Assembly: GCA_017466325.1 (NCBI GenBank)
Contig: JAFTUK010000012.1
Span: forward strand, 1 to 46,300
Origin: Bacteroidaceae bacterium
Lineage (GTDB): Bacteria; Bacteroidota; Bacteroidia; Bacteroidales; Bacteroidaceae
Reading direction: 5' to 3'
Length of the DNA stretch: 46,300 bases
This document shows, piece after piece, positions 641-39,094 of this stretch; within the stretch, counting starts at the first letter, position 1; each line of letters begins with the position of its first letter. Made by a program: the position numbers and the translations under genes. Below the pieces are notes generated by a model that worked only from the letters and a program-made list of their open reading frames with translations, had not been told where the DNA came from and did no database searches.

Positions 641-682
641 CACCAGAAAAACGGAAAAGTGAAAACGGAAAGCGGAAAACTG

Positions 683-753
683 ACCCGCTCACCCGCTCAC
701 CCGCTCTTCGTTAACTACTAACTCCTAACTCCTAATTACTAATTACTAACTCC
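683..753. repeat. stacked arrays: 3 x 8 bp and 6 x 7 bp
   Basis: Positions 683-706 hold three perfect ACCCGCTC units. Positions 712-753 hold six 7-bp units: taactac, taactcc, taactcc, taattac, taattac, taactcc. The second array ends seven bases before the start codon of the smalltalk gene. The first array is the complement of the GTGAGCGG-type repeats found near 18758, 41861, 44205, 45827 and 46079. Confidence 0.85.
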
Positions 754-32094: not shown

Positions 32095-32529
32095 TTATAT
32101 ATTTACAAAGAAGGATACGGCCATAGCCAACAGTATGGCCCATGGCCAGCGGACAATGCCATAGGTAATGAGTTCAAGTGCATCGCGCCTGGAGTGCAGG
32201 GTACCTGACACTATACCAAAGACAAAGCACACCAATATACACTCTATGCACAGACTTTGGAAAAGTCCACGACTCCACGGGGACGGAAACACCTTGCCGG
32301 TAACACCAAGCAGAGGACTATAGGGAATCAGGGCGGAAAGCAGCAAAAGCACATTGCAGATGACAGCAACTACAATGGCCGCCACAAGACCGTCCATATC
32401 GCGCACTACCAGCAACCTGCTACGGATTACGCTGCCTACGGCTACAATGAACAGAATCGTGTAAACCAGCAATTCCGAGGCGGCACGCTCTGTACCATGA
32501 AGCCACAGATACCTCAGTATTTCGTCCAT
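32095..32529 (-). CDS. four-helix membrane protein, unknown family
   Basis: A 144-residue hydrophobic protein with four probable membrane segments (about 18-36, 46-67, 88-109 and 124-142). A charged cytoplasmic-looking start (MDEILRYLWLHGTERA) precedes the first helix, with a basic turn (SRLLVVRD) between helices 1 and 2. I recognise no family. It lies 41 bp after the response regulator and 44 bp before the helicase, all on one strand, so it may belong to the signalling operon as an output or sensor part. No enzymatic motif is seen. Confidence 0.65.
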   Translation of the reverse strand: MDEILRYLWLHGTERAASELLVYTILFIVAVGSVIRSRLLVVRDMDGLVAAIVVAVICNVLLLLSALIPYSPLLGVTGKVFPSPWSRGLFQSLCIECILVCFVFGIVSGTLHSRRDALELITYGIVRWPWAILLAMAVSFFVNI

Positions 32530-32570: not shown

Positions 32571-33293
32571 CTACTCCTCATCGGGACGGAGGTTCTCCAA
32601 ATCTATTATACGAAGTTGCAATGCCCTTGTTACCAGACGTGTTGCATTGACACCCGTACGTTCATTGCCCGGGAACAAGCGGTTGATAAGGTCGGCCTGA
32701 CGCTTCTCAAGGCTCTTGGCTCCGAAGGGCATCCCCTTAAGGTTTGCAATCATGTCTTTGGTGTATCCCAAGGCCAAATGACGGAGATAACGTTCGTCGT
32801 ACTCGTCAATGTCGTAGTCGATAATGGCATCGCTCTGCTGCACTTCTGCCAAGATGCTTTTGCGGAAGCGAACGAGTATCTTCTCCAGAATAGGTTCGTT
32901 AAACACAAAGCGACGTCCATGCATGACCAGTTGCACGTCATCGCGTTGCAACAAGTTGCCGGTCTTCAGAATTATGCCGTCGGCACCGGCAGAAAGAGCC
33001 TCTACCCACAGACGCTCATTCTGGATTTCACCAGTGAATATCAGTATCTTGAGATTGCTGTACCTGTCTCTCAACTGGCGGCAAATGTCGATGCCCACCG
33101 TGGTGCTTCCACCCAAGCCAAGGTCCAGCAATATCATGTCAGGCACATCCTTACGCATGAGTTTCCAGAGTTCTGCCTCATTTTGTGCAGTGCCAATAAT
33201 AGTGGCCTCAGGAATCTCACTCCTGAAGATATGTTCAGTTCCCTTTAATTCCAACTGAACGTCTTCGACGATAATAACCTTGAATTCTTCCAT
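32571..33293 (-). CDS. response regulator with receiver and divergent HTH output
   Basis: A 240-residue protein with a receiver domain: acidic pair E10-D11 in KVIIVEDVQ, phospho-acceptor D57 in DMILLDLGLGG, the switch residue T in LIFTGEI, and K in GIILKTG. The C-terminal part (about 165-235) has LALGYTKDMIANLKGMPFG, RQADLINRLF and ATRLVTRALQL, a plan like a LuxR/NarL helix-turn-helix with changed residues. It should be phosphorylated by the kinase encoded just upstream; its gene starts 49 bases inside the kinase gene, so the two are translationally coupled. Target genes are unknown. Confidence 0.9.
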   Translation of the reverse strand: MEEFKVIIVEDVQLELKGTEHIFRSEIPEATIIGTAQNEAELWKLMRKDVPDMILLDLGLGGSTTVGIDICRQLRDRYSNLKILIFTGEIQNERLWVEALSAGADGIILKTGNLLQRDDVQLVMHGRRFVFNEPILEKILVRFRKSILAEVQQSDAIIDYDIDEYDERYLRHLALGYTKDMIANLKGMPFGAKSLEKRQADLINRLFPGNERTGVNATRLVTRALQLRIIDLENLRPDEE

Positions 33294-36200
33294 AATGTTA
33301 TGATGATTTCATTGTTTTCCACATATAGTCTCAATCCCGGGAAACCGCATGACGCATCATGCATGCGTACTATCTCGCGTGCCACGAAAGCATCCAGATT
33401 GCCCGCCTCTGGCGTGAACAGATTGTCGGGTATCTGCTTGCCCAACACCTTTATTCTTACTTCCCGGATTTTGTTAATGTCCTTGGTCTCAACCGAAATG
33501 GGTGCGTGTGAAATGGCAGCCATAATCCTACGTTTCAATTCGTACAGCACGCTTTCATCCATAGCGACCTTGAGGGCTGTCTGGCGTTGCGCCTGACCCA
33601 ACAGCATGGTGTACACATCATTGTAGTAGTTCATCAGCTGGAAAAGGTCCTTGGTGTCGGTATGCCTGTTCATAGCCATCTGCTGGATACGGGCAGGATA
33701 ATACATTGTCTCGTGCTTGATTGTGGAAAGGCTGTTGTCCAGAATACGGTTCTGGATGTGTACGCGGTCCAGCTCATACTGCACACGGTTGAGCGTCTCT
33801 GTCTGGAGGGACTGCAAATCCTCCTGCTGTCGCATCTCGTTCCTACGACGTCTGGAACGACGAACGGCAAATATCAGCCAGACAACGGAGAAAAGGAAGA
33901 ACAGCAGAGTGAAGAATAAAGACCATGTTATTTCCGTCTTTACCGTATGCAATCGCTTGGCATAGACAGGAAGATTGGGGTCTGCCGTGTATTGTCTGTA
34001 CAGGCGGACGCATTGCAGATTGTGGTTCCTGTACTCGTCCCACAAGCAGAGGTTCTGCGATGCAACAGCCATTTCATTCTCCACAAGCATACGTAAATAT
34101 ATGCTGTCTTCTGGTATAAGCTGGAGAAGTTGGCGGCCATGTTCCAATGCCTTGCCATAGCGGGCGGTAGCATTGTAATTGCATATTGAGTCGTAGCGGA
34201 CAAGCGCCTTGTCATATTCATTCCCGGCAAACACACCGACATTGAATAACAGGAAAGCAAGTACCGCAAGTACACGGGGAAGCCTGAACCAGAAACGGCT
34301 TCCCTTGCCTTCCTCGCTTTCAACACCGAAATCACAACAGTGAAAACGGCTTGAAAGTTTCTTCATCTGGCCGATAATGCCCTTACAGTTCATCAATCCG
34401 AAGCCAAATCCCTTGCCGTCACTCTGTGTCGGGTCATCGTCGTTTTTCACAGAAGAAATCCGGAATACCTTGCTGTTGTTTATCTTGTCCACATTCTCAG
34501 GAGTAAGACCGCAACCGGTATCCTTAACCGATATCTCAACTACATTATCGTCTGCATTTACCATTATGCTCACAGTGCCGCCGGAAGGCGTAAACTTGCG
34601 TGCATTGTCACAGAGCGTGTTAATCATGAAAAGCGTCAGGGCACGATCCGCCTTTACACAGATACCTTCTGCCGCAGCGACTTCAAGGCTGATACCTTTC
34701 TGCAGATAGGTGCTTCTGTTCTTGGCTATGGTATCCAGTAGCGGTTGCAATGGGAATGTGGTAATATTCATTGCCACCTTGCCCTGCTTTACCTGAATCC
34801 ATTCCGTAAGTATATCGTTTATACGAAGAATCTCTGCCGAAAGTTCGGCCACATACTCCATGTCCTGCGTGTTGAGCATGCGGTTTATGTATGGTACGAC
34901 GTTCTCGGCAAGGCTCACCTTTGCACGACGCTCAATATTGGACAGTTTTTCGCGAGCCAACTGCATCTCGCGTGCACGTGTCTCGTCTATCGTGAACTGC
35001 AGGGTTTCCTCCGCTTCGCGCTCCTGCCTCTGGCTGTGCTTTTTTAACCTTGCGTTCAAGGTGCGGAAAACCACAAACACTATCAGTATGAGGATGGCTA
35101 TGACAGAAAGGTTTATGTACAACCTGTAGTTATACGACTGCAATTCTTCGGCTCGAGCCTCTTCTTCAAGGTCCTGGCGCATTGACTCGAGAAGAGACAG
35201 GTAGATGTTGCGGTTCTGCATCGCCTTTTCCGTGTTGCCGAGCGCACTGTGTGTCAAGGACAGGCGTTCGTAGATGGCGGCTTCCCAATAAGGGACACGT
35301 TTTGCTTCTATCCTATGCTGCTTGGACACGATTTCAAGAGCCTCGTACAATGGTGCAAGAGCCTCCTCATAACGTTTCTGCCGGAAAAGCAATTCTGCCT
35401 TTGTACGCAACACGTTGGCTGTCTGGAAGCAGTCATTGTACTGGCGGAACAGTTTCAAAGAGTGGTTGGCAAGTCTCAGGGGCAATGAATCTTCGCAAGA
35501 CATCGTACCCGGCTCGGAATACTGTCCGACAATGAAGTCCATACCTCCACCGCGGTTGTTTCTCAGCAACGCCTGTATTCCAGGCTTCTCCAATAGGGTG
35601 GCAAGAGCCTGAAGACTATTGGCCTGGAAGTATTTGTCCTTACGACGCCGGGAAATGGTCAGTACGTGTGTAAGATAGTCGAATTCCTTCAATATGACAG
35701 TAACGCTATCCCCACTCAATATTCCTCCTGCACCAAGCAAATACATGTAACTGGTCCATTGTGCGGTATCCATAGGCAGCCTCATATAAGGCTCTATGCT
35801 GTTCATCTCGGCACGCGAGGCAGAATGCTGTTGGGAATAGAAATAGAATGTACATACAATGATGTGCATTTCCGTGCGTGCATACAGGACTCTGCTCCTG
35901 AGATGGGGGGATAGAAGATGAAGTTCCTCATCTATTCTGTCCAGCCTTCTCTCGGCACTATGCCATGCTCTGTAGAATGTCCGGAACTCGCCCGTTCTCT
36001 GCGACACCTTCATTCTCAGAACGTCAGCACATAGAAGTTCCACCTGATTGTTTGTCAGCGAATCAACCGCATCCAACGCTTTCATGGCGTCGCTGAAATG
36101 CATCTGCTGGTAAAGGACAAATGCCTTATGGCTTATGGCTTCTGCCTTGCCATCGGGATAATCTTCACTAAGGGTATATGCATAGTTGGCATAATGCAAT

Positions 36201-36331
36201 GACGAGTCGACATCAACATAACGAAGAAGGTATGCCCGACGATTCATTTCGTCGGGCATACTTGTGTCTTTCCGTGTACATGATGCAAACACGAGAAGCA
36301 CCATTAACGCAACAGCAATTCCTCTATTCAT
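33245..36331 (-). CDS. tandem-module sensor histidine kinase with two TPR sensor regions (DUF5112/DUF5113-like)
   Basis: A 1028-residue protein. Residues 1-18 are a signal with a lipobox-like FASC. About 30-400 is a helical TPR-type sensor, then a membrane helix (406-424), a dimerisation-like helix (455-515) and an HATPase domain (535-685): N-box NTLCDNARKF, G1 DTGCGL (604-609), G2 GKGFGFG. A second membrane helix (686-702) leads to another TPR-like periplasmic stretch (703-800), helix 801-823, then HETMYY at His873 and a C-terminal domain without a good ATP motif. In the first dimerisation helix the usual phospho-His site is Ala475 (LAENVVP). A degenerate His-box appears only in the second half. 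DUF names are from recall. Confidence 0.85.
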   Translation of the reverse strand: MNRGIAVALMVLLVFASCTRKDTSMPDEMNRRAYLLRYVDVDSSLHYANYAYTLSEDYPDGKAEAISHKAFVLYQQMHFSDAMKALDAVDSLTNNQVELLCADVLRMKVSQRTGEFRTFYRAWHSAERRLDRIDEELHLLSPHLRSRVLYARTEMHIIVCTFYFYSQQHSASRAEMNSIEPYMRLPMDTAQWTSYMYLLGAGGILSGDSVTVILKEFDYLTHVLTISRRRKDKYFQANSLQALATLLEKPGIQALLRNNRGGGMDFIVGQYSEPGTMSCEDSLPLRLANHSLKLFRQYNDCFQTANVLRTKAELLFRQKRYEEALAPLYEALEIVSKQHRIEAKRVPYWEAAIYERLSLTHSALGNTEKAMQNRNIYLSLLESMRQDLEEEARAEELQSYNYRLYINLSVIAILILIVFVVFRTLNARLKKHSQRQEREAEETLQFTIDETRAREMQLAREKLSNIERRAKVSLAENVVPYINRMLNTQDMEYVAELSAEILRINDILTEWIQVKQGKVAMNITTFPLQPLLDTIAKNRSTYLQKGISLEVAAAEGICVKADRALTLFMINTLCDNARKFTPSGGTVSIMVNADDNVVEISVKDTGCGLTPENVDKINNSKVFRISSVKNDDDPTQSDGKGFGFGLMNCKGIIGQMKKLSSRFHCCDFGVESEEGKGSRFWFRLPRVLAVLAFLLFNVGVFAGNEYDKALVRYDSICNYNATARYGKALEHGRQLLQLIPEDSIYLRMLVENEMAVASQNLCLWDEYRNHNLQCVRLYRQYTADPNLPVYAKRLHTVKTEITWSLFFTLLFFLFSVVWLIFAVRRSRRRRNEMRQQEDLQSLQTETLNRVQYELDRVHIQNRILDNSLSTIKHETMYYPARIQQMAMNRHTDTKDLFQLMNYYNDVYTMLLGQAQRQTALKVAMDESVLYELKRRIMAAISHAPISVETKDINKIREVRIKVLGKQIPDNLFTPEAGNLDAFVAREIVRMHDASCGFPGLRLYVENNEIIITLWKNSRLLSSKTFSWN

Positions 36332-36347
36332 ACCCTGACACTATGTT

Positions 36348-37598
36348 TCAGTCTTTGACAAAACGCTTGTCCATCGTATTTGACTGCATATTGCTGTTCA
36401 TGAATGGAGTCACCTTCATATCGTCTTCTGACTTGGCATTACCATGATGCTTTTCTAACATCTTGTCTATTTCTTCAAACTTCTGTCCCATGTTCAGGTT
36501 CAGGTAAATCCTGTACAACGGATTACCCCAACGGTCCAAATCATCCGGAATAAGTTCCCGAACCCTCTCCATCGGTTCAAGGGCACGACGATACAAAACC
36601 CTGCGCCTTGCCGTCTGATTCTCCGACAATGCCAAATTCAACAGGGGAATTCCTTTATTGTATAAGGCATCTATGTTGTCGCTCTCACGCTTCAGGCACT
36701 CGTCGCTCATGCTTATGCACTTCTCATAATCTCCTTGTGCCAGGGCAAACATGCTCATGGCAAACCAGTACATGGCCCTGTCCACATCTGACCTGACCAA
36801 CGAGTCTGTACGTGCGAGACCTTTTTCTATCTCCCCATGGCGCATATAATAATCCATAAGGTTCAAGAAGAAATAGTTGTAACCGGGATACAGGTCAACA
36901 CCCTCGTCCAGTATCTCCAGCCACTTGGCACTGTCACCGATATGAACATAACTGCGTGCCTTATATTCTGCCAGTGCGGGACGCTCTGCTTCTGAATTCA
37001 AGGCAATTGCCTTATCCACATGTTCCAGCACATGATAAGGGTTGTTTTCGTTCATTCCGCAGATTGTGGCCCAGTATGCTACACGTCCGATGACACTGTC
37101 CAAGTCTGTGGTGCATGTTTTGATGTACATGTCAAAAAAGGGATATGCCTCTGACCATTTGGATTTACGGAGCAGGAACTTGCCGCCTCCCAACAGGTTG
37201 TCCCGGTGCAATGCCCTCAGTTTTATGTTCTTGTTCTCGAATTTGCCTGATTCATCCACAGAATCACTGCTGAGGGTGTAATCATATATTTTAAGGACCG
37301 TCTGGTATAATTTTACGGTATCTAAATTCTGCTTCAGATAGGCTTGCATATTCAAGCCTTCGTTCTGACTCTGCTGTAACAGGGCACAGAGATTATACCC
37401 CTCTGCTCTCTGTTTGTCAGTAGTCGTGGGCAATGCCATGCTGTCAAGAAGAATACGTTCAATGTTTTCCTGACCTGAACCTGCCTTTATAGCAGCATGG
37501 GCTTCTTTGAACCTCTTCTTGATGGTCATCTTCTTTTGAGCATTAAGAGTAGTAAAAGAGAAGAGGCTCACAAATAATATAAGTAGTAGTCGAATCAT
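36348..37598 (-). CDS. secreted tetratricopeptide-repeat protein
   Basis: A 416-residue protein with a signal peptide (MIRLLLILFVSLFSFTTLNAQ, cleaved before about residue 21) and a mature part of alpha-helical repeats; recognisable repeat-like segments are near 190-210 (HVLEHVDKAIALNSEA), 255-275 and 290-320 (ALAQGDYEKCISMSDECLKRE). It starts the transcription unit containing the sensor kinase, whose start is 16 bp after this stop. A periplasmic ligand or stress sensor feeding the kinase is a reasonable guess but not shown. ATG 37598 is chosen because the signal peptide begins there. Confidence 0.78.
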   Translation of the reverse strand: MIRLLLILFVSLFSFTTLNAQKKMTIKKRFKEAHAAIKAGSGQENIERILLDSMALPTTTDKQRAEGYNLCALLQQSQNEGLNMQAYLKQNLDTVKLYQTVLKIYDYTLSSDSVDESGKFENKNIKLRALHRDNLLGGGKFLLRKSKWSEAYPFFDMYIKTCTTDLDSVIGRVAYWATICGMNENNPYHVLEHVDKAIALNSEAERPALAEYKARSYVHIGDSAKWLEILDEGVDLYPGYNYFFLNLMDYYMRHGEIEKGLARTDSLVRSDVDRAMYWFAMSMFALAQGDYEKCISMSDECLKRESDNIDALYNKGIPLLNLALSENQTARRRVLYRRALEPMERVRELIPDDLDRWGNPLYRIYLNLNMGQKFEEIDKMLEKHHGNAKSEDDMKVTPFMNSNMQSNTMDKRFVKD

Positions 37599-37622
37599 TA
37601 TAGAATCAACAGGAAGAGAATT

Positions 37623-37658
37623 TAAAAGGACTGCCACAACAGCATACCGTTGTGGCAG
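37623..37658 (-). terminator. terminator of the gyrA-TPR operon
   Basis: CTGCCACAAC (37631-37640) pairs with GTTGTGGCAG (37649-37658). On the minus strand the stem is followed by TCCTTTT (37630-37624), so it ends transcription from the TPR gene upstream on that strand. Confidence 0.85.
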
Positions 37659-37705: not shown

Positions 37706-39094
37706 TTAGTTGAGGTATGCATCCATTTCAGCAGCCTTCTCCTTCTCACCAATGTTGTTATAGATAACCTTCAAGGGAGAGGCCCATTTGCTGGGATCCT
37801 TGTCTTCCAACTCGCGATACCTTTCAAAATAGGGAGCGGCCTTGGCGAAAAGACCCTTCACCTCATCCTCGGCAGCCTTGATGGCGGCCTGAGACTTCAT
37901 CTTCTTTCCGCTTATTTCACGTGCCTTCTCCAATGCGTTCTGATAATAGCAATAACCGCAATTGTAAACACCGTCAGCATAGTCGGGATCTATCTCCACA
38001 GACTTCTGGAAGAAGGTGATGGCATTGCTAAAGTCGCTCTTGGCATAGAAAGCAAAACCACGGCAGTAGTTTGCCACCTTACTCTCGGGATACTTCTCAA
38101 CCAATTCCTTGGTGTAGGCATCAACTGCCTCGTTACCGGCACTATTGTAATGAGCCATCAACTGCTGCATACCTATTTCGCCAACCTCGCTATCGGGAGC
38201 AAGAGCGATCATCTCCTTCATTGCTACAATCCACTCCTCTGTCTTGCCCTGGTCCTTCAGCATCTGGGGCTTTGCGCGAAGAACGAAGTTGTGGCTTTCC
38301 TTGTTGTCGAACTGCAAGGCCAGGTCATAATACTTGTCCATCAGTTCAGCGTTCTTGTCATTGAAAGCAGTATAGAAGATATTGAACGCAAATTGCGAAG
38401 CGGGATATTCGGGATTCTTCACGATGTCGTTGTCAGCCATCTCGGGATACTTGACAGGGAAGTTGATGTAAGCATCCAATGCCTTCTGTGCGCCTTCCAG
38501 GTCCTTTGCTTCAATGCAGAACTGACACAGGTAAGCATAGTATGTATGAGTCTTGGGGAACTTCAACTTTACAGACTGGATACTAAGATTCTGAGTCTGG
38601 TCTTCCACATTACCCCATGTCAGCTGGCCGTGGCATGCATCGGTAATGGCGAAGATTGAAGATGCAAGTGCTTCACGGTTATAGGGTTCCTTCTTGGAAG
38701 CCTTTACCAGTTCGCTGTTCAAGACCATTGTTGCCATGTCGTCCAGTGCCTTGTATGCCTGGAACTTCTTGTTGTCCTTGATGTACTCGGTAGAGAGTGC
38801 TTCTGTCAGAAGTGCGATACCCTCAAGAGATACTGTCTGGATCTTGGCCTCGTTTTCTGCAATCAACAAATCATTGGAAGACTCGCCCTTCTGCTGCTCC
38901 ATCTGGATAGCCTGATAAAGGGTCTGTACCTCTGTTGCACAAGCCATACCGTCGCTGAGTTTCTTGTTGGCCTGCTTGGTGGCTTCTTTCAACGCGGCCT
39001 TGGCAGCCTTTTCAGCAGCCTTCTCTTCGGGAGTCTGAGCCATCACACTACCTGTAAATAGTGCAAGGGCAATGGTGAAAAGAATCTTTTTCAT
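37706..39094 (-). CDS. secreted TPR protein
   Basis: A 462-residue protein with a signal peptide (MKKILFTIALALFTGSVMAQ) and a Lys/Ala/Glu-rich mature start (TPEEKAAEKAAKAALKEATK). TPR-like units are visible, e.g. FAFYAKSDFSNAITFFQKSVEIDPDYADGVYNCGYCYY (about 350-390, in parts), and a C-terminal QAAIKAAEDEVKGLFAKAAPYFERY. It is 30 bp after gyrA on the same strand, hence probably co-transcribed. It may be an envelope assembly or maintenance protein; no precise role can be assigned. Confidence 0.8.
   Translation of the reverse strand: MKKILFTIALALFTGSVMAQTPEEKAAEKAAKAALKEATKQANKKLSDGMACATEVQTLYQAIQMEQQKGESSNDLLIAENEAKIQTVSLEGIALLTEALSTEYIKDNKKFQAYKALDDMATMVLNSELVKASKKEPYNREALASSIFAITDACHGQLTWGNVEDQTQNLSIQSVKLKFPKTHTYYAYLCQFCIEAKDLEGAQKALDAYINFPVKYPEMADNDIVKNPEYPASQFAFNIFYTAFNDKNAELMDKYYDLALQFDNKESHNFVLRAKPQMLKDQGKTEEWIVAMKEMIALAPDSEVGEIGMQQLMAHYNSAGNEAVDAYTKELVEKYPESKVANYCRGFAFYAKSDFSNAITFFQKSVEIDPDYADGVYNCGYCYYQNALEKAREISGKKMKSQAAIKAAEDEVKGLFAKAAPYFERYRELEDKDPSKWASPLKVIYNNIGEKEKAAEMDAYLN

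Follow-up and report, generated by a model that had tools for sequence, protein, structure and literature searches.

A Bacteroidaceae sensor kinase with its ATP site and predicted phospho-histidine in two homologous halves of one chain

The window analysed here, a stretch of 46,300 nucleotides from a Bacteroidaceae bacterium (positions 1 to 46,300 of the forward strand of contig JAFTUK010000012.1, assembly GCA_017466325.1), carries on its minus strand a gene for a two-half sensor histidine kinase and, adjoining it, a gene for a response regulator. Judged by their motifs, the ATP site and the likely phospho-histidine of this kinase lie in separate domains, both on one polypeptide, in the window as well as in 222 rows of aligned homologues. 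The canonical one-core HisKA plan does not describe the protein, neither half combining a conserved His with an ATP site. We lean towards the view that it is a kinase dimer fused into a single chain, permanently asymmetric and with a one-way flow of phosphate. Two-half proteins of this kind are present in most of the Bacteroidaceae examined. The homologues were aligned as one protein per locus in sets of 66, then 142 and then 222 rows, the last set consisting of non-identical homologues with the window copy included; fractions of 222 refer to this set. The proteins are 978 to 1529 amino acids long in the 215 rows not touching a locus end. In the cytoplasmic columns two homologues are on average about 0.40 identical (a gap being scored as a letter), and the invariance of His873, Glu874 and the ATP-site columns described below lies far above chance.

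Complementary losses in two homologous halves

Each half of the kinase has a dimerisation and histidine phosphotransfer domain (DHp1 and DHp2) and a catalytic and ATP-binding domain or its remnant (CA1 and CA2), and the chain has three transmembrane segments (TM1 to TM3). The features are as follows.

33245..36331, minus strand: two-half sensor histidine kinase of 1028 amino acids (ATG at 36331, stop at 33245-33247, single open frame)
36278..36331, minus strand: signal peptide with a lipobox-like Cys18 (hydrophobic at 3-19; putatively lipidated)
35444..36253, minus strand: sensor 1, which is DUF5112, a helical TPR-like repeat, residues 27-296 (Pfam, E 3e-70)
35048..35302, minus strand: part of the first DUF5113 with TM1, residues 344-428, the membrane segment at 406-422 (Pfam and hydrophobicity)
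34787..35014, minus strand: helices of DHp1 (half 1), lacking the phospho-His, residues 440-515 (model helices 388-476, 478-486 and 491-511)
34907..34909, minus strand: Ala475, at the usual place of the phospho-His by the Pro register (alignment)
34274..34783, minus strand: CA1 (residues 517-686), the ATP-binding domain that half 1 keeps intact (HATPase_c, E 3e-18)
34220..34273, minus strand: TM2, about residues 687-704, exact limits uncertain (hydrophobic window 680-696; low-confidence model stretch 688-704)
33980..34216, minus strand: sensor 2 (residues 706-784), the shortened second copy of a DUF5113-like region (modelled as four helices)
33869..33919, minus strand: TM3, residues 805-821 (hydrophobic segment)
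33578..33808, minus strand: DHp2 hairpin with the conserved LSxxKHE motif, residues 842-918 (model helices 786-875, 878-887 and 893-918)
33713..33715, minus strand: His873, predicted phospho-acceptor (222/222; the equivalent in the homologue L063 lies near HK853 residue 260)
33278..33559, minus strand: CA2, decayed and shortened ATPase-like domain, residues 925-1018 (profile match, lost motif residues, L063 fold)
32571..33293, minus strand: partner response regulator, receiver and DUF5932 (Pfam; 49-nt overlap with the kinase gene)
33123..33125, minus strand: Asp57 of the regulator, predicted final acceptor (D in 122/122 regulators)

When the profiles of the two halves are aligned with each other (hhalign), they match over 203 columns (99.0%, E 8.7e-18), and on this evidence from sequence the halves are homologous duplicates. 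In the H-box region the mean pairwise identity is 0.37 for half 1 versus 0.73 for half 2, and in the CA domain it is 0.56 for half 1 versus 0.31 for half 2 (142 rows, 1500 sampled pairs). These opposite trends, taken together with the invariant sites of the two halves, indicate that each half keeps what the other half has lost.

In half 1 it is the ATP site that is kept. The N, G1 and G2 boxes are found in one HATPase_c of the chain, which belongs to this half, and T572, N576, K579, D604, G606, G608, G643 and G645 are invariant (222/222), N571 being Asn in 219 of the rows. The column of Ala475 is occupied by Val in 200 rows, Ala in 13, Leu in four, Ile in three and Met in two, and by His in none of the 222. 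The counterpart of His873 falls in column 475 by the Pro register and in column 476 by the profile-profile alignment; the latter column is variable (Glu in the window) and has His in 16/222, followed by Ala (6), Gly (4), Ser (3), Asp (2) or Asn (1). Other His residues of half 1 occur in column 479 in five rows and in column 473 in one.

Half 2 keeps the His. Ser869, Lys872, His873, Glu874 and Pro879 are invariant in all 222 rows, and CA2 is devoid of the N, G1 and G2 motifs, whose residues have been lost; no HATPase_c was found in half 2 by the Pfam scan of the window kinase. At the same time, the half-2 profile matches the CA domains of kinases in the PDB (ThkA, E 6e-7; ZraS, E 7e-7), and the predicted model of half 2 of L063 (pLDDT, the predicted local distance difference test, of 91) is aligned by Foldseek with HK853 across both DHp and CA (E 6e-14, TM-score about 0.5). 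An offset of 228 is common to the five HK853 alignments beginning in the first helix, and it places the conserved His (residue 32) on residue 260. By its predicted fold, half 2 comprises a whole kinase core, of which the ATPase domain has decayed. In the window's clade CA2 is without its first strands and helix, 155 residues following the His versus up to 234 in other members, and the decay of CA2 seems to continue in this clade.

Part of this had been anticipated in an earlier note made from the sequence of the window. The note had placed A475 in LAENVVP, the ATP-site motifs at N571-N576, D604-G608 and GKGFGFG, and H873-E874 in KHETMYYP with the Pro at +6, all of which agree with our reading, and its picture of an intact ATP site in half 1 (N576, D604, G606, G608, G643 and G645 in 222/222) and of a His-Glu pair in half 2 (His873 in 222/222) is borne out by the homologues. 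Among the findings that it had named as speaking against it were homologues with His at position 475, of which there are 0/222, the near miss being the His-Asp of L248 and L250 one column on; a His873 that is not conserved, whereas it is invariant; and a fold that leaves it outside a four-helix bundle. In the predicted model His873 lies in the first helix of the DHp hairpin, near the phospho-His place of HK853. The note was right that half 2 has no clear ATP motif, but the C-terminal domain that it left without a class is, by profile and fold, a decayed kinase ATPase domain. DUF5112 and DUF5113, which it had named as parts of the protein, both pass the Pfam gathering scores (PF17139, 237.1 versus 29.4 bits; PF17140, 63.6 versus 27.1 bits). 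Its count of three membrane passes agrees with the hydrophobic segments 406-422, 680-696 and 805-821; an additional N-terminal segment, ending at Cys18, goes unmentioned in it.

The Pfam scan of the kinase gave DUF5112 (27-296), part of DUF5113 (best stretch 344-428), TPR and one HATPase_c (569-686), and sensor 1 of the predicted model resembles TPR proteins in structure. Two DUF5113 stretches were present in four of the five homologues scanned. Three of these four have their best stretch in half 2 and one has it in half 1, so that both halves carry DUF5113. The full plan of the family is DUF5112-TPR-DUF5113-TM-DHp1-CA1-TM-DUF5113-TM-DHp2-CA2, and the window protein is a shortened member of it. 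A Cys stands at a lipobox-like position at the N-terminus of 135/142 homologues; a sensor kinase possibly anchored by lipid at this end seems unusual, and the single-core relative described below has a lipobox-like Cys as well. Among NCBIfam families the whole protein matched FimS of Porphyromonas best (NF053520; residues 403-686, E 4.9e-22), but membership was rejected at 77.9 bits versus a cut-off of 600. An artefactual fusion was also rejected, both sites sharing one frame in 222/222 rows. The genome of the window (88% complete) has one copy of the kinase, and the copies in two metagenome-assembled genomes (L031, 71%; L032, 98%) argue against a sequencing error.

Pairing of the halves and the flow of phosphate

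Coupling between DHp1 and DHp2 was studied by mean-field direct coupling analysis (DCA) on the 222 sequences (effective number 143-169). A ladder of coupled pairs was obtained, composed of 451-843, 458-850 and 465-857 (offset 392) and of the weaker 454-847 and 461-854 (offset 393), with a spacing alternating between 3 and 4 in a coiled-coil-like manner. The best three-step ladder has a z of 7.3 versus 3.7-4.5 in four control helix pairs, and it stands above all of the 123 control blocks, which overlap one another and of which the top one reaches a z of 5.96. It ranks first in six out of six DCA settings on 222 rows and in the single setting tried on 142 rows. Three further pairs (471-913, 474-913 and 476-915) connect the first helix of half 1 with the second helix of half 2. 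As the hhalign register gives a homologous offset of about 396 upstream of the His, the ladder would imply a stagger of approximately half a heptad. The pairing of DHp1 with DHp2, inside one chain or swapped between two chains, is supported statistically by this covariation, which suggests it from sequence data. The sensor regions (residues 301-400 and 706-800) are also strongly coupled, with 16 pairs above four standard deviations (sd), and may pair like the DHp helices.

We propose that a unit consisting of sensor, transmembrane segment, DHp and CA was duplicated within one chain and that its copies then decayed in complementary ways, half 1 keeping the ATP-binding CA and losing the phospho-His, half 2 keeping the phospho-His and losing the ATP motifs. 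The halves, belonging to one chain or swapped, would pair through their first DHp helices in the manner of the two subunits of an ordinary kinase, which would give an asymmetric DHp bundle. Upon a stimulus, presumably sensed in the periplasm, CA1 would move the phosphate of ATP to His873 of the other half, from which it may be passed to Asp57 of the adjacent DUF5932 regulator; we infer the two transfers and their direction alike. The division of labour alone, with ATP bound by half 1 and the phospho-His provided by half 2, had been put forward in the earlier note and is supported by the tests of sequence and fold, and we regard it as very likely; joined with the pairing of DHp1 and DHp2, it is probable.

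Several observations weigh against this proposal. The Pro of half 2 is found at His+6 and not at +5. The root-mean-square deviation in the five HK853 superpositions is large (12-17), because DHp and CA lie differently. In L248 and L250, close relatives from the genus g203, half 1 has a His-Asp at column 476 with a Pro at +4, the half-2 His being retained, and half 1 may therefore not be functionally free of His everywhere. The coevolution analysis rests on 222 sequences, effectively 143-169. Plain mutual information ranks the 451-843 ladder second with 222 and with 142 rows, and in the set of 66 rows the ladder is second by DCA and does not reach the top five by mutual information. Taken as a whole, the DHp1-DHp2 block has 14 pairs above four sd, and other comparisons between blocks have from 4 up to 16 (16 for sensor 1-sensor 2 and 13 for sensor 1-DHp1); an enrichment of CA1-DHp2 couplings was sought and none was found, the value being 0.63-fold in the top 100; and the strong inter-half pairs 450-905 and 447-909 misfit the bundle geometry. 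The regulator is absent beside the kinase in 6/204 loci (L085, L086, L088, L130, L135 and L162). As observations in their own right, the His-Asp of L248 and L250 raises the question of whether a second His was retained or regained, and five of the six loci just named (L085, L086, L088, L135 and L162) belong to the genus g211, several genomes of which are without a kinase-adjacent regulator.

The ladder also bears on the geometry. With the division of labour unchanged, two chains might form two homodimeric bundles, DHp1-DHp1' and DHp2-DHp2', with CA1 reaching His873 of the neighbouring bundle, as would befit the homodimeric nature of ordinary membrane kinases, the fact that each half has its own transmembrane segment and helix hairpin, and a DHp1-DHp2 block no richer in couplings than other blocks. 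A heptad ladder running between the halves is, however, unexpected from homodimeric bundles, and we consider this arrangement unlikely. Half 2 might instead be charged by another kinase or regulator, in a relay like that of Spo0B, ChpT or PhyT, the use of ATP by half 1 being purely regulatory; those proteins share its plan of a DHp that bears the His and an ATPase domain that has decayed (as described in the excerpted text of PMC5898713). The residues N576, D604, G606, G608, G643 and G645, invariant in 222/222 in the same chain, make such a relay improbable, as does the single-core relative, which unites both functions in one core.

It is very doubtful that half 1 phosphorylates another residue of its own or none at all, half 2 being only a phosphatase or a scaffold for the regulator. 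His873 is unproven as an acceptor, and column 476 of half 1 has His in 16/222, with two His-Asp pairs; that column is otherwise variable, however, and the His-Glu of half 2 is invariant. According to the excerpted text of PMC3591291, the HE/DxxN/T phosphatase motif of HisKA has Thr or Asn at His+4. Neither occurs at that position in half 2, which has Tyr in 206 rows, Trp in 11, Phe in three and Ser in two, and with an aromatic residue in 220/222 the HE/DxxN/T phosphatase chemistry is unlikely. That both halves are relics, the protein being a scaffold or a sensor without phosphotransfer, would suit the loss of the CA2 motifs and the shortening of CA2 in the window's own clade and is hardly credible for a protein with invariant catalytic residues, a linked regulator and a matched presence and absence of the two across the family.

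Regulator, distribution and origin

The regulator gene adjoins the kinase gene in 198/204 loci with at least 400 nt downstream (118/124 in the first set and 80/80 in the second) and was seen in three further loci with 309-336 nt downstream. All of these 201 regulator genes are on the strand of the kinase; 194 have a start lying between -200 and 300 nt from the kinase end, and for the remaining seven the called gap or overlap is larger. In three of the genomes whose kinase has no adjoining regulator (G344, G363 and G481) kinase and regulator are situated on different contigs, both being kept. The likely contact helix of the regulator is invariant (L14, E15, G18, T19 and I22 in 122/122), so that no covariation is available to show which half docks the regulator. 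Its resemblance to NarL over 5-183 (E 2.6e-8) makes a DNA-binding output likely.

A search with the window protein (E<=1e-40) gave a match in 310/399 genomes of the same family; in 295 genomes of the order the matches from outside this family were much weaker, the best having an E of 1.3e-23, and no match to the kinase was found in viral contigs. DUF5112 is present in 156/201 same-family genomes and DUF5932 in 157/201, and the two tables list the same genomes except for G391. In one genome, G376 (L075 and L268), the DUF5112 kinase and the DUF5932 regulator are each matched twice. Half 2 was also looked for as a separate protein by searching 247 genomes of the order with its profile; among the matches listed outside the family, all start at profile position 41 or later (at least 41), so that the DHp His region, near position 30, is not included in them.

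A possible ancestral form was found outside the family. DUF5932 occurs in 5/277 genomes of the order, four of the window's family and G101. In the latter, a single-core kinase is encoded at L107:656-3432 on the minus strand, and a 94% identical protein exists in G286 (locus L285); such a kinase is present in 2/60 genomes of the family of G101 and G286. The L107/L285 kinase has a lipobox-like start, a TPR-like sensor, a hydrophobic segment before the core and an RHD H-box, and in the G101 protein the N and G1 boxes of the ATP site were read directly; the regulator gene overlapping it in G101 scores above the DUF5932 cut-off. The 35 outgroup kinases aligned, L107 included, come from loci matched by the window protein outside the family or by the half-2 profile; they are all single-core and all have the H-box His. 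An unrooted tree was made from 68 cores, of which 16 are from half 1, 16 from half 2, two from single-core proteins and 34 from other kinases of the order. A branch with 100/99 support splits off this last group; branches are long, and how the two halves and the single-core relative branch among themselves is not settled by the tree. Duplication of the core followed by complementary decay is the simplest account of these data, and the L107-type single-core kinase is a candidate pre-duplication form.

Immediately upstream of the kinase are two TPR-repeat genes (36348-37637 and 37706-39094, minus strand), and a gene for a 144-aa hydrophobic protein follows the regulator (32095-32529, minus strand; a match in 15/42 loci). 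The gene order gyrA-TPR-TPR-kinase-regulator-pcrA recurs in part, the first TPR gene being found in 12, the second in 10, gyrA in 9 and pcrA in 17 of the 42 loci.

Comparison with known systems

The earlier note had spoken of a new architecture. The literature searched, which leaves most subscription journals outside its coverage, yielded no description of a single chain that joins two complementary half-kinases, and no paper in it uses the names DUF5112, DUF5113 or DUF5932; split and degenerate kinases on separate proteins are, on the other hand, already known. Spo0B and ChpT have a conserved DHp His together with a decayed ATPase-like domain. Half 2 of the window kinase is like PhyT in having the same combination, and PhyT is suspected to be a degenerate descendant of a kinase, for which Spo0B and ChpT are cited as precedents (excerpted text of PMC5898713). 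In contrast to these stand-alone relay proteins, half 2 is fused to CA1, which could feed its His. DivL and RetS, which are atypical kinases, are separate proteins without a second half supplying the missing site.

The ATP site and the phospho-His are likewise divided between different cooperating parts in CheA3/CheA4 of Rhodobacter sphaeroides (PMC3591291) and in the split CheA Hik36/Hik43 (PMC7656254), as far as the excerpted texts describe them. CheA3 and CheA4 are separate CheA-type proteins, and the His is located in the P1 domain of CheA3, whereas the window kinase is one membrane chain with two homologous DHp-CA cores. In partial texts of two further sources, EL346 is described as a monomeric kinase in which the protein's own sensor covers the dimer face (PMC10359499), and engineered heterodimeric phytochromes are described as controlling kinase modules (PMC12329595).

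The Pfam domains of kinase and regulator, DUF5112, DUF5113 and DUF5932, are of no known function, and they belong here to a system widespread in the family. The protein looks like a clear case of duplication and complementary loss inside a single enzyme, for which a candidate single-core relative is at hand: the L107/L285 kinase shares the lipobox-like start, the TPR-like sensor and, in G101, the DUF5932 regulator, but has one core with its His (RHD) and ATP site intact. The symmetry of kinase subunits, and the choice between phosphorylation within and between them, are usually masked because the subunits are identical; here the roles are seemingly divided between two distinguishable halves of one chain, each of which could be mutated alone. 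The fold of each half is the DHp-CA fold of HK853, CpxA and ZraS, all of which are among the structural matches of half 2, and yet, unlike in the ordinary homodimeric kinases, neither half has both the His and the ATP site, so that the asymmetry is fixed in the sequence itself.

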